From positions 6,395 through 33,476 of the forward strand of contig DOZZ01000137.1 of assembly GCA_003517725.1 (NCBI GenBank): a stretch of DNA of 27,082 bases, written 5' to 3'. Every line of letters starts with the position of its first letter. Position 1 is the first letter of the stretch. This document shows positions 2,538 through 6,121 of the stretch, piece after piece. This DNA is from Bryobacterales bacterium (GTDB lineage Bacteria; Acidobacteriota; Terriglobia; Bryobacterales; Bryobacteraceae). The position numbers and the translations under genes were made by a program. The notes under the pieces are model-generated. The model saw only the letters and a list, made by a program, of their open reading frames with translations. It searched no databases and was not told the origin of the DNA.

Positions 2538-4367
2538 ATGCCTCCTCGCGAACGCAAGATGGAGCTACCGCACTCCTGGATCGACCGCCTTCGGGCCTTG
2601 CATAACGTCACTCCGCTGATCCGGATGATCTGGGATACCAGCCCTGCTTTAACCGCGGCCACGCTTGCCATTCGCCTCGTTTCCGCTTTCATTCCGGTGG
2701 CCCAACTGTGGGTCGGCAAACTGATTATCGATAGCCTGGTGCGGGTGATGACCCATCGTGCGCCCAACTCGGGGCGGGTCTGGGTTTATCTTTCGTGGGA
2801 AATTGCGCTGGTCGTTGTGAGCGATTTGTTGGGACGGCTCGGCGCTTTCTGCGACAGCCTGCTGGGCGACAAGTTCACCAATTTTCTGAGCCTGCGGCTG
2901 ATGGAGCACGCGGGTGCGCTCGATCTGGTCACTCTCGAAAATCCGGAGTTCCACGACAAACTGGAACGCGCGCGGCGTCAGACCACGGGCCGCCTGGGAA
3001 TGCTGGCGACGGTAGCCGGAGTGGCCCAGCAGACCATTACGCTGTTGTCGCTCTCGGCCGCCGTGGTGGCTTTCTCGCCGTGGTTCCTGGTGCTGATGGT
3101 GGCGGCCGTGATTCCGTCTTTTCTCGGTGAGACCCACTTCGCCATGCTGGCCTATTCCATGCTTTTCCGATGGACGCCGGAACGCCGCGAACTGGACTAT
3201 CTGCGCCTGCTGGGAGCCAGTCACCAGAGCGCCAAAGAAGTCAAAATCTTTGGGCTGGGGCCCTTTCTCACCGCCCGCGCGCGCCGCCTCTTTAATCAGT
3301 TCTACGACTCCAACAAGCGGCTCGCCATGCGCCGCGCGGCCACCGGCGCGCTTTTGAATCTGCTGCCGACCGCCGGCTACTACGGAGCTTACGTTTTGAT
3401 TTTGCTCGGCACTCTGGCAGGCAGGCTAACGCTTGGTGACCTCACCTTCCTCTCCGGCGCCTTCGCGCGATCGCGCAGCATCATCGAAGGTTTGTTTTCG
3501 AGCTTCAACAACATCACCGAGCAGGCGTTCTATCTGAAAGATCTCTTCGACTTTTTCGAGACCAAGCCCACCATCGTCTCCAAGCCCGGCGCACTGCCGG
3601 CTCCTCGGCCGATCCAGTCGGGTTTCGAATTTCGACGCGTCTCGTTCGCCTACCCCGGATCGCGCCGCAACGTGCTCCACGGCGTCAGCTTCCGGCTGGA
3701 CGCGCGCGAACGCATTGCACTGATCGGGGAAAACGGGGCCGGCAAAACCACCCTCGTGAAGCTGCTGGCGCGTTTGTATGACCCGACCGAGGGCAGCATC
3801 CTGCTGGACGGGGTCGATCTGCGCGATTACTCGGCCGAGGATCTGGCCCGGGAGATCGGCGTGATCTTCCAGGATTACATGCGGTACGACATGCTGGTCA
3901 AAGACAACATCGGCCTCGGACGCGTCGAAATGCTGGCGGATCAAAATCGCATCGAACAGGCCGCGCACAAAAGCCTGGCAGCCCCGCTGATTGCCAACCT
4001 GCCCGGCGGCTACCAGCAAATGCTGGGGCGCCGTTTTGATAACGGCATCGATCTTTCCGCCGGACAATGGCAGAAAATTGCGTTGGCCCGCGCCTACATG
4101 CGCGACGCGCAGGTCCTGATTTTAGATGAGCCCACCGCAAGCCTTGACGCGCGCGCCGAGTATGAAGTGTTCCTGCGCTTCACGGAACTCACGCGGGACC
4201 GCATGGCGATGCTGATTTCACATCGGTTTTCAACGGTGAGGATGGCGGACCGCATTCTGGTACTCGCGGATGGCGGCATCCAGGAGCAAGGCACCCATGA
4301 ACAGTTGCTTGCGCTGCGGGGCCGTTACGCCGAACTGTTCGAATTACAGGCGGCCGGATATCGTTGA
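2538..4367 (+). CDS. ABC exporter, fused permease and ATPase (NisT-like peptide-exporter type)
   Basis: Protein of 609 residues. The N-terminal half (about 20-330) is a six-helix exporter membrane domain and contains the NPEFHDKLERA element seen in NisT-like exporters. The nucleotide-binding domain shows Walker A GENGAGKTT (397-405), signature LSAGQWQK (506-513), Walker B VLILDEP (526-532) and an H-loop SHR (561-563). The LSxGQWQ form is typical of exporters for ribosomal peptides and related molecules. There is no C39 peptidase domain, so leader removal would need another protease. It is convergent with the JmjC/cupin gene, separated by a hairpin. ATG at 2538 was chosen; an internal ATG at residue 8 is possible, and neither has a strong Shine-Dalgarno. 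Export of the neighbouring Trp/Gly/Asp peptide is inferred from context. Confidence 0.9.
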   Translation: MPPRERKMELPHSWIDRLRALHNVTPLIRMIWDTSPALTAATLAIRLVSAFIPVAQLWVGKLIIDSLVRVMTHRAPNSGRVWVYLSWEIALVVVSDLLGRLGAFCDSLLGDKFTNFLSLRLMEHAGALDLVTLENPEFHDKLERARRQTTGRLGMLATVAGVAQQTITLLSLSAAVVAFSPWFLVLMVAAVIPSFLGETHFAMLAYSMLFRWTPERRELDYLRLLGASHQSAKEVKIFGLGPFLTARARRLFNQFYDSNKRLAMRRAATGALLNLLPTAGYYGAYVLILLGTLAGRLTLGDLTFLSGAFARSRSIIEGLFSSFNNITEQAFYLKDLFDFFETKPTIVSKPGALPAPRPIQSGFEFRRVSFAYPGSRRNVLHGVSFRLDARERIALIGENGAGKTTLVKLLARLYDPTEGSILLDGVDLRDYSAEDLAREIGVIFQDYMRYDMLVKDNIGLGRVEMLADQNRIEQAAHKSLAAPLIANLPGGYQQMLGRRFDNGIDLSAGQWQKIALARAYMRDAQVLILDEPTASLDARAEYEVFLRFTELTRDRMAMLISHRFSTVRMADRILVLADGGIQEQGTHEQLLALRGRYAELFELQAAGYR

Positions 4368-4392
4368 GACTTTGTGCACCGATATCCAGCCG
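4351..4392. terminator. Long hairpin between convergent genes, likely bidirectional terminator
   Basis: The arms CGGC-c-GGATATCG (4351-4363) and CGATATCC-a-GCCG (4380-4392) pair over 12 base pairs with one mismatch, around a 16-base loop. The hairpin overlaps the stop codon of the ABC exporter and lies just past the end of the cupin gene on the other strand. No clear T-run follows on either side, so intrinsic termination is plausible but not certain. Confidence 0.55.
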
Positions 4393-4399
4393 AACTGTA

Positions 4400-5620
4400 T
4401 TACGCGGCCCGGTCGGGAACGACTGCGGCCAGGCCGGCATTCACCAGCTCGGCTACAAACACCCGCAGCGTTGCCGGAGGGATGGTTTCGCCGCTGGTTT
4501 GCTGAAGCTGCGCCAGACTACACGTCTGGTGAGCCCGCAACGCTTCGAGCACCGGACCCGCGGCCGCCGCGAAAGTAGCCTCCTTGCCGTTACCGCGGAC
4601 CACAATGGTGTCGTCTCCGTTGCGGTGCCACTCCACTGGGCGAGCCACCAGGTATTTCACGGCCCATCCTTCATCTTCCGGAGGCAGCACTGAGGGTTGA
4701 GCGGTCCACGGCAGTCCGAAATGGGGCCGCGAGCGAGCCTGCGCGTCGAGCATTGAAAAATATTCGTCCAGCAGTCCTGGCTGCCAGGCTTGTTCCCAGG
4801 CCTGGCGCAGACACTCGAGGTGAGCCTCTTTGGCGGCCGCCGTGGCCAGCCGCGGGAGGTCGTTGCGCACATCCGTGCTGGAACGCAGCCGATCCGCGAA
4901 CCACGCCATGAAATCGAGGCCGCTCGCCCGGTGTATTCCCACCGTGAGATGCAGCGTCGGTTCGTCCAGCGGCACGGCCACATGCCACCAGCCTCGCGGA
5001 ATATACAGCAGGTCGCCGTCTTCCAGCAAGCCTTCCCACACCGGCTTTTCCGGAGGAGCTTCCTTTTTGGGATCGCCCTCCACCGGATGTTCGCGGGTCA
5101 TGGGATAGACCTTCCAGTGCTTGCGGCCGCTGATTTGAAGAATCAGCACGTCATGGCCGTCCCAGTGAAGGTCGAAGCCCGGCGACGTACGCCAACCCGC
5201 GTACAGGTTGACCTGAATGCGGGCGCGCAAGGCTTTTTCGATGTCCGCCGCGAGATCCCGGACGGGAGCATGGAGTTCATCCACGGCATCCAGGATCAGC
5301 GTCGCGCCTTGCTGCAAATGCTGGGTCAGTTCGGCGGAGCGGATGCGGGTCGTGGCAGGCGCATTCGGGCGCCGCGCCGGATGGTAGGAAAGAAATGAGT
5401 CGGCGGGAATGGGCTGACCGTCGCGTGCCAGCCGTAAGCGCGGGGTGTCCAGTTGGTGCAGAGCCAGGATCTCGTTCAGGTCGGGCCAGGTAAGCAGAGA
5501 TGAGAACTTGCCGGGGTGACCTGGGAAATATTGAAAACTTCTTCCCAGGTCGTTTTGCACAAACTTATCGGTGCTGGCCGGCGCAAGAACGTCGGCCAGC
5601 GTTTTAGGAGTCTTTTCCAT
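4400..5620 (-). CDS. JmjC/cupin-4 family Fe(II)/2-oxoglutarate-dependent oxygenase with C-terminal winged-helix-like domain
   Basis: Protein of 406 residues. The double-stranded beta-helix core (about 75-235) shows the HxD...H iron site: His152-Trp-Asp154 and His213 in GWWHVAVP. The segment GRKHWKVYP (165-173) carries a Lys likely to bind 2-oxoglutarate. A helical linker (about 235-320) and a winged-helix-like domain (about 322-402) follow, the order seen in bacterial ribosomal oxygenases such as RoxA/YcfD. Members of this family hydroxylate protein side chains. RoxA-like proteins act on ribosomal protein uL16, so a ribosomal role is an alternative. The gene starts 24 bases after the stop of the Trp/Gly/Asp peptide gene on the same strand, with no clear Shine-Dalgarno of its own. 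That suggests coupling to the peptide, so the inferred substrate is the peptide. Confidence 0.85.
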   Translation of the reverse strand: MEKTPKTLADVLAPASTDKFVQNDLGRSFQYFPGHPGKFSSLLTWPDLNEILALHQLDTPRLRLARDGQPIPADSFLSYHPARRPNAPATTRIRSAELTQHLQQGATLILDAVDELHAPVRDLAADIEKALRARIQVNLYAGWRTSPGFDLHWDGHDVLILQISGRKHWKVYPMTREHPVEGDPKKEAPPEKPVWEGLLEDGDLLYIPRGWWHVAVPLDEPTLHLTVGIHRASGLDFMAWFADRLRSSTDVRNDLPRLATAAAKEAHLECLRQAWEQAWQPGLLDEYFSMLDAQARSRPHFGLPWTAQPSVLPPEDEGWAVKYLVARPVEWHRNGDDTIVVRGNGKEATFAAAAGPVLEALRAHQTCSLAQLQQTSGETIPPATLRVFVAELVNAGLAAVVPDRAA

Positions 5621-5644
5621 GAGGAATGCCGCTGTCGGATGGGT

Positions 5645-5845
5645 TTAGTAATCGCCGTCCCAGCCGTCCCAACCATCGCCATCCCAGCCATCCGCGTCGC
5701 CAAAGCCGTCCCAGCCGTCTCCGTCATCCCAGCCCCACCAGCCCCACCAGCCCCAGGATGTCGACTGCGCACCGAATTTGGTGGGCGGTCCCGCAACGGG
5801 CTTCACGCCGAGCAAAAGTCCCGATTTCGAGTTTAGTTGTGCCAT
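5645..5845 (-). CDS. Small Trp/Gly/Asp-repeat peptide, candidate RiPP precursor
   Basis: Peptide of 66 residues. Residues 1-30 are an ordinary leader-like stretch beginning MAQLNSKSGLLLGVKP. Residues 31-66 are 12 Gly, 11 Asp, 10 Trp and one each of Phe, Ala and Tyr. This tail begins with WGWWGWWGWDD and continues as degenerate DGWDG repeats ending at Tyr66. ATG at 5845 is preferred because GGAAGG (5852-5857) lies 6 bases upstream; an in-frame start further upstream (5881) would add 12 residues. The tail is strongly acidic and aromatic, unlike any globular protein. The next gene on the same strand, 24 bases on, is a JmjC/cupin oxygenase, and an exporter lies beyond. Precursor function is inferred; I do not recognise the sequence as a named family. 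It could instead be a repetitive metal-binding or surface peptide. Confidence 0.75.
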   Translation of the reverse strand: MAQLNSKSGLLLGVKPVAGPPTKFGAQSTSWGWWGWWGWDDGDGWDGFGDADGWDGDGWDGWDGDY

Positions 5846-5848
5846 GAT

Positions 5849-5857
5849 CCACCTTCC
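5849..5857 (-). promoter_or_regulatory. Shine-Dalgarno fixing the start of the Trp/Gly/Asp peptide
   Basis: On the minus strand the bases GGAAGGTGG precede ATC-ATG. The GGAAGG core is 6 bases from the ATG at 5845. No comparable site precedes the longer in-frame start at 5881. Confidence 0.7.
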
Positions 5858-6121
5858 GTATGAATTTGCCGCACGTCCCAACCATCAGCGCCCGGAACAT
5901 GCACTTAGGTAGACGAGGCCTGACGCGCTAAGTTTCACACACATTTACAAATTTGGACTTGCTTTTCATTAAGGAACCGTCATCAATTTCACGGCTCCGC
6001 GGCCTTCTAGCTGCAACCACCTCTACAGGGGCAGCGTCACTCGGTCAGGTCGGCGAATGGTCGCGGGCCAATCCAACGCAGCCGCTTAGCCGTTTGCGTT
6101 TTGTTAACGGGGATAAAAAAT

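Follow-up and report, generated by a model that had tools for sequence, protein, structure and literature searches.

Ribosomal oxygenases such as NO66 (RIOX1), MINA53 (RIOX2) and YcfD/RoxA share a JmjC domain with an HxD...H iron site, a helical part and a C-terminal winged-helix domain. As far as the parts of PMC6182338 available to us go, the known enzymes act on histidine or arginine, not on aspartate, and the function of their winged-helix domain is called unclear. JmjC/cupin-type hydroxylases also act on precursors of ribosomally synthesized and post-translationally modified peptides (RiPPs), namely BpmG and PbsQ of the biphenomycin-like RiPPs (PMC12257519, consulted in excerpts). In fish and algae, PF08007 proteins with a fused fold that resembles the RiPP recognition element (RRE) have been reported, and their bacterial homologues occur in RiPP-like surroundings (Bregman et al., 2025; PMC12710340, likewise in excerpts). 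The present analysis concerns a stretch of 27,082 nucleotides (the window) from a Bryobacterales bacterium (assembly GCA_003517725.1, contig DOZZ01000137.1), in which a small gene for a peptide rich in tryptophan, glycine and aspartate adjoins the gene of a JmjC/cupin oxygenase. We hypothesize, at a probability of roughly two in three, that the two genes represent a RiPP-like family in which the JmjC hydroxylase binds the leader of the peptide via its winged helix and hydroxylates residues of the core, most likely aspartate.

Judged by the excerpts at hand, the closest known counterparts are the ribosomal oxygenases and, among RiPPs, those modified by JmjC hydroxylases (biphenomycin family, PMC12257519). 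The oxygenase of the window is about 20% identical to NO66, MINA53 and YcfD, and in contrast to these it adjoins a small, leader-bearing, Asp-rich peptide. According to the same excerpts, BpmG and PbsQ hydroxylate ornithine within a many-enzyme pathway, whereas in the window the oxygenase gene is the sole enzyme gene seen adjoining the peptide, and the core consists of Asp repeats. That JmjC/cupin hydroxylases such as these already act on RiPP precursors was counted in favor of our hypothesis. The accessible parts of PMC12710340 describe neither a precursor family nor a leader motif or Asp-repeat core for the RRE-like JmjC proteins, and our searches, limited to open-access papers, listed no title or abstract describing the precursor family. 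A Nif11 domain/cupin cluster of Synechococcus (PMC10783134, seen in part) was also considered and not found to be related.

The candidate precursor (66 amino acids, 5645..5845, minus strand) was delimited by its ATG start, its translation and an alignment of homologues. Residues 1–30 (5756..5845, minus) form the leader part, MAQLNSKSGLLLGVKPVAGPPTKFGAQSTS, in which the alignment places SGLLLGV at residues 8–14; the boundary between leader and core is a guess. Residues 31–66 (5648..5755, minus) form a 36-residue Trp/Gly/Asp core ending in DGDGWDGWDGDY, which by count comprises 12 Gly, 11 Asp, 10 Trp and one each of Phe, Ala and Tyr. GGAAGG lies directly 5′ of the ATG, and judged by eye the N-terminus lacks a signal-like stretch. 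The stop codon is followed after 24 nt, on the same strand, by the oxygenase gene (4400..5620, minus, 406 amino acids), which is the sole enzyme gene seen adjoining the peptide in the window. No promoter or terminator consensus was found between positions 4300 and 6200. The encoded JmjC_2/cupin-4 2-oxoglutarate oxygenase matches PF08007 (E 1.4e-26). Its iron site is intact: H152, D154 and H213 are invariant in the 36 homologues of alignment A2 (taken from 120 listed out of 1052) and kept in 52, 52 and 53 of 54 oxygenases of a wider set. The preliminary description of this locus, made from the letters alone, had given the same tail composition, spacing and iron site, and was accurate in all three.

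A search with the window peptide against 5.8 billion proteins returned 46 other proteins at E<=1. Alignment A1 holds 46 of these 47 proteins, the window's included (45 homologues; P0024, which has an extended N-terminus, was excluded). The leader motif (K)SGLLLGV is common to the 45 homologues, with S8, L10 and L12 invariant across the alignment, and the core contains ten invariant columns (D40, D50, D52, D55, G56, D57, D60, D63, G64 and D65), eight of them Asp and two Gly. Scans of Pfam and NCBIfam gave no model for the peptide. For those 5 of 91 pairs of relatives' precursors that have an overall proportion of nonsynonymous differences (pN) below 0.25, pN was lower than the proportion of synonymous differences (pS) in the leader and in the rest. 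Because 45 homologues keep the leader and the relatives' precursors show pN<pS, the open reading frame (ORF) is confirmed, at the level of sequence, as a member of a real gene family and not a product of chance.

A second search, with nine Pyrinomonadaceae-type precursors, gave 664 homologues (E<=0.001). Among 120 of these that were listed, 117 fit the leader motif expression; the remaining three are two near variants (SSDLLLSV, SGLLQSV) and one protein with the motif beyond the scanned part. The shared leader stands before differing cores, as the conserved leader and variable tail envisaged in the preliminary description would have it. Such a combination, within one gene-encoded precursor, of a leader that is kept and a core that varies is typical of RiPPs. 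Three of the Asp-rich precursors (P0186, P0195, P0273) are labeled cobalamin biosynthesis protein CobT by the source, which is probably a misannotation owing to low complexity.

In 199 genomes of the phylum, 66 gave a match to the window peptide at E<=10, only the window's own falling below 0.004 and the rest being short pieces at 0.004 or above; among 237 genomes of the family, the Trp-type peptide was found in the window's genome only. The pattern DGWDGDGW had 14 matches in the species genome collection, none of which proved on inspection to be a small leader-bearing precursor, and an oxygenase pattern search of the same collection confirmed nothing. Evidence for pairing of the Trp type comes from contig sizes. 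Nine Trp-type peptides, the window's included, sit on contigs of exactly the same size as that of an oxygenase homologue, whereas 120 control shifts (1–60 bases either way) gave a mean of 0.475 and a maximum of 3 matches. Among the oxygenases for which a contig is listed, the 20 with the highest scores include all nine partners; the 96 with lower scores, some of which are fragments, gave no match.

The pairing is also present in Pyrinomonadaceae, an assignment that rests on the names of precursor homologues. Here 17 of 119 genomes carry the oxygenase, 42–48% identical to that of the window, and an Asp-rich ORF lies directly upstream in all 16 loci with upstream sequence (in L094 the contig begins inside the oxygenase). 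The leader is of the SG[LF] type in 13 of the 16, usually SGLLLSVEPL, with two copies in L078; the precursor of L083 was identified by reading the DNA directly. In G283 the motif is absent from an upstream ORF with DGDGTDGDGSD repeats, and in L086 and L088 the contig start cuts the precursor so that only the core is visible. At least 20% Asp was found in 13 of 981 ORFs of 50–200 amino acids in the 17 loci, and all 13 are precursors adjacent to the oxygenase. The leaders of both types are alike: a profile built only from Trp-type leaders (45 of 46; P0031 did not fit the motif expression), run against 5458 ORFs of these loci, placed precursors at ranks 1–7 and in 10 of 15 matches up to E 10, where single matches are weak (best E 0.01) and the ranking is the evidence. 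One locus (L095, G889) has two tandem precursors with similar leaders and different cores before a single oxygenase.

A Pyrinomonadaceae leader profile was matched in 17 of the 119 genomes (E<=0.01). Leader and oxygenase occurred together in 15 genomes, the oxygenase alone in 2, the leader alone in 2 and neither in 100 (Fisher p 4e-15); since the profile derives from positive genomes, only the absence elsewhere is independent evidence. The oxygenase-only genomes are G283 and G824 (contig cut), and the leader-only genomes are G834 and G818 (E 0.005, stop in frame, probably chance). In G831 and G837 leader and oxygenase are on different contigs, with the leader near contig ends. The leader contigs of G831 (C212) and G834 (C295) are equal in size (20,526) with the match at the same place, and are probably one contig binned twice.

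Beyond the phylum, plasmid records with the oxygenase numbered 38 at E<=1e-30, of which 33 are from Streptomyces, and 77 at E<=1e-20. Fourteen of the 33 Streptomyces records, chosen for variety, were read; these loci are related and not independent. A small ORF precedes the oxygenase by 9–21 nt in 14 of 14, ending in SDGGGTG[KR]SDGND (nine), DGGGTGKGDGND (two) or TGGKSDMNDT (three). A GL[LVI]-type motif was seen by eye in 12 of the 14 peptides, the N-termini of L136 and L138 being different. With the Trp-type leader profile, three near-identical precursors of the NSGLLIGVRRI type occupied ranks 1–3 of 2369 Streptomyces ORFs (E 2.4e-4 to 2.7e-4), and the other Streptomyces precursors were unmatched; a profile of both leader types matched the NSGLLIGVRRI type at E 0.014–0.016. 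In a Nocardia locus the upstream ORF contains DDLLLAVESL, and at an Embleya locus no precursor was found. The precursor–oxygenase pair proposed in the preliminary description is hence strongly supported as real and conserved, by the 16 Pyrinomonadaceae loci, the co-occurrence in 119 genomes and the Streptomyces loci, and related pairs in other bacteria point to a family of enzyme-modified peptides that as yet has no name. With a modifying enzyme adjoining the precursor and the pairing conserved, a RiPP-like nature of the pair is likely.

Some of these plasmid loci have features of their own. An aldo/keto reductase gene follows in 12 of the 14 Streptomyces loci, then a gene called phosphotransferase or hypothetical, and the compact cluster (L129–L142) of peptide, cupin oxygenase, aldo/keto reductase and phosphotransferase-like or hypothetical gene resembles a biosynthetic pathway of its own. 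On a plasmid of Nostoc sp. C057 (L145, 2539–5183), some 315 nt separate a 46-residue peptide ending in WSGGEGDDNA from a downstream cupin oxygenase; next comes a sucrase ferredoxin gene, an order also seen in Pyrinomonadaceae. On a plasmid of Paraburkholderia megapolitana (L146), a relative of the oxygenase lies amid ThiF, MoaD/ThiS, YcaO-like and MFS genes and a 42-residue ORF; by its gene content, this is another RiPP-like setting.

The oxygenase has the architecture of ribosomal oxygenases, a JmjC domain with HxD...H followed by a C-terminal winged helix (residues 316–406, 4403..4675, minus). When this domain is folded alone, its similarity to RiPP leader-binding domains almost equals that to MINA53, and it shows the three strands followed by three helices of solved RREs. 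In this comparison Foldseek E-values are weak and MINA53 has the top score, so RREs are not alone in having the fold. At the sequence level, PqqD (PF05402) matched 1 of 36 homologues (E 0.027) and HTH_24 matched 7 of 36. One of the oxygenase homologues, whose names point to Acidobacteriota and probably to Bryobacteraceae, is 77% identical to the window's enzyme. In a FastTree tree of 54 oxygenases, the nine Trp types group together (support 1.0) inside an acidobacterial clade with Pyrinomonadaceae (0.949), and those of Streptomyces, Embleya and Nocardia form a separate clade (0.961); a node uniting the two, together with four of five distant oxygenases of the window's own family, is unsupported (0.304).

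This data may suggest a possible mechanism of a two-gene system. The product of the peptide gene would be a precursor in which a leader for recognition (SGLLL[GS]V) stands before a core of Asp-rich repeats. The winged helix of the oxygenase may act as a built-in, RRE-like domain that holds the SGLLL leader, while the JmjC site would hydroxylate many core residues in turn, most likely at the beta carbon of Asp, by analogy with the C3 hydroxylation in ribosomal oxygenases. Side-chain hydroxylation, already proposed in the preliminary description, remains the likely chemistry. CinX of cinnamycin carries out a 2-oxoglutarate-dependent beta-hydroxylation of a RiPP Asp; it belongs to another enzyme family and acts on a lanthipeptide, in whose core a single Asp is modified. 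Afterwards the leader may be removed, or the whole acidic protein may be used, and the acidic product could have a metal-binding or surface role.

Several observations on distant relatives weigh against this interpretation. Five genomes of the window's own family besides its own (237 genomes) have an oxygenase at E<=1e-40 (29–39% identical), and four of these have upstream sequence, the contig of G456 beginning at the oxygenase gene. In two of the four, G476 and G477 (oxygenases 38–39% identical), a peptide with SGPGPxxDGF repeats, encoded divergently from the oxygenase, is present; the loci of the other two, G486 and G468, show no Asp-repeat peptide. The oxygenases of G468 and G456 have lost iron ligands: Arg and Asn replace H152 and D154 in both, with Tyr at 213 in the former, and by sequence these enzymes may be inactive or changed in function. 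Likewise, in a set of 17 JmjC matches besides the window, an Asp-repeat peptide adjoins 10 (L033, L035, L037–L044), and 7 (L034, L036, L045–L049) are without peptide by the filters used. A check for cupins that lack the peptide, suggested in the preliminary description, was run in part and left out 99 lower-scoring homologues (P0070–P0168). It favored the pair for the Pyrinomonadaceae and Streptomyces homologues read; among the distant own-family loci, two of four had another DG-repeat peptide and two none.

The small genes beside these distant oxygenases are of several kinds. In G476 and G477 (L070, L071) the gene encodes a signal-like N-terminus and five SGPGPxxDGF repeats, and lies about 400–680 nt upstream on the opposite strand. 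All eight loci L037–L044 carry upstream, on the opposite strand, a small Tat-type protein with a lipobox-like site (by eye) and TDSDG/DSDQ stretches in varying copy number, next to JmjC oxygenases of about 29% identity. A same-strand Tat-type protein with DSDTGRPPDNK repeats occurs in L035/L077.

Another account of the pair is that the peptide stays whole and uncleaved as a hydroxylated calcium or metal buffer, inside the cell or at its surface, with an N-terminal motif that only docks the enzyme, and is no natural product. DGDG-type repeats resemble calcium loops, and the distant relatives just mentioned adjoin Asp-repeat proteins with signal- or Tat-like N-termini. A lack of further widely common neighbors points the same way: besides the oxygenase and a Suc_Fer-like gene following it in 15 of 17 Pyrinomonadaceae loci (PF06999, verified by the scan of a single complete protein), no neighbor family is common to more than 5 of the 17, and a PF06999 search of the window's assembly gave no match. 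The conserved leader before a variable core, typical of RiPPs, and the window peptide's start without a signal-like stretch argue against such a buffer, which we regard as a possible but rather unlikely explanation.

The pair may also be correct and the modified residue not Asp; Trp, for example, might be beta-hydroxylated in the window type and different residues in other cases. Trp makes up 21.6% of the Trp-type tails, and the known ribosomal oxygenases target His or Arg, not Asp (PMC6182338, in the parts available). However, only one Trp occurs in 120 whole proteins of the Ser/Thr type (Pyrinomonadaceae), despite an enzyme identity of 42–48%, and most invariant core columns are Asp. The Asp share is practically constant (32.4% in tails of the Trp type, 32.3% in those of the Ser/Thr type), while Ser and Thr together rise from 3.5% in the former to 26.4% in the latter, the Pyrinomonadaceae cores being SDGTD/ADGTD-like. 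Because the Asp share is constant while Trp practically vanishes in the sister clade, Asp appears to be the likeliest common target, as judged from composition; of the two residues named in the preliminary description, Asp or Trp, the former is favored. A target other than Asp hence seems improbable.

An ordinary ribosomal protein oxygenase of the YcfD/NO66 type with an unrelated acidic neighbor is a still weaker proposition. The shared architecture, the best PDB matches (ribosomal oxygenases), the naming of some homologues as L16 Arg81 hydroxylase by their sources, and the absence of a second PF08007 match from the window's assembly (81% complete) would fit it. On the other hand, pairing and leader are conserved, identity to solved ribosomal oxygenases is about 20%, and only 2 of 385 genomes sampled from the phylum gave the enzyme at E 1e-60, a scarcity not expected of a housekeeping enzyme. 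This explanation is very unlikely. That the peptide is a spurious low-complexity frame can practically be dismissed: its sequence is repetitive and mirror ORFs of the opposite strand overlap it, but homologues with a conserved leader, pN<pS in the five most similar precursor pairs from relatives, GGAAGG before the ATG and a presence tied to the oxygenase stand against it.

An ABC exporter gene (2538..4367, plus strand), which the preliminary description had included in the system with its strand unstated, is convergent with the oxygenase gene, with 32 nt between the stops. The protein does carry LSAGQWQ, which fits the LSxGQWQ signature of NisT-type peptide exporters. Its best PDB sequence matches are ABCB4 and ABCB1, with MsbA lower, and its best NCBIfam models are MsbA-type, far under the curated cut-offs. 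At E<=1e-5, a search of 252,603 bases from 19 related loci found no relative; the window, recovered as positive control, was the only Trp-type locus covered. Lying on the opposite strand, the gene cannot share an operon with the pair, and it is neither co-transcribed nor conserved with the precursor. It was therefore rejected as a part of the system and is probably a bystander.

Going further, one may speculate about a class of poly-hydroxyaspartate peptides that spans phyla, is made by JmjC enzymes of the ribosomal-oxygenase type and binds calcium, lanthanides or iron, with the winged helix of NO66 and MINA53 as a relative of the leader-binding domain; we consider this extension doubtful at present. 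If true, it would link the human ribosome hydroxylases NO66 and MINA53 to bacterial peptide biosynthesis. Metal-binding peptides might be produced with the help of an enzyme able to hydroxylate numerous Asp residues of a repeat. In the present pair the SGLLL leader is an obvious candidate ligand for the winged helix, which makes the role of this domain in ribosomal oxygenases testable. The finding would extend the range of RiPP-like families by one that comprises very few genes, in which one conserved leader precedes cores as unlike as WDGDG, SDGTD and SDGGGTGKSDGND.

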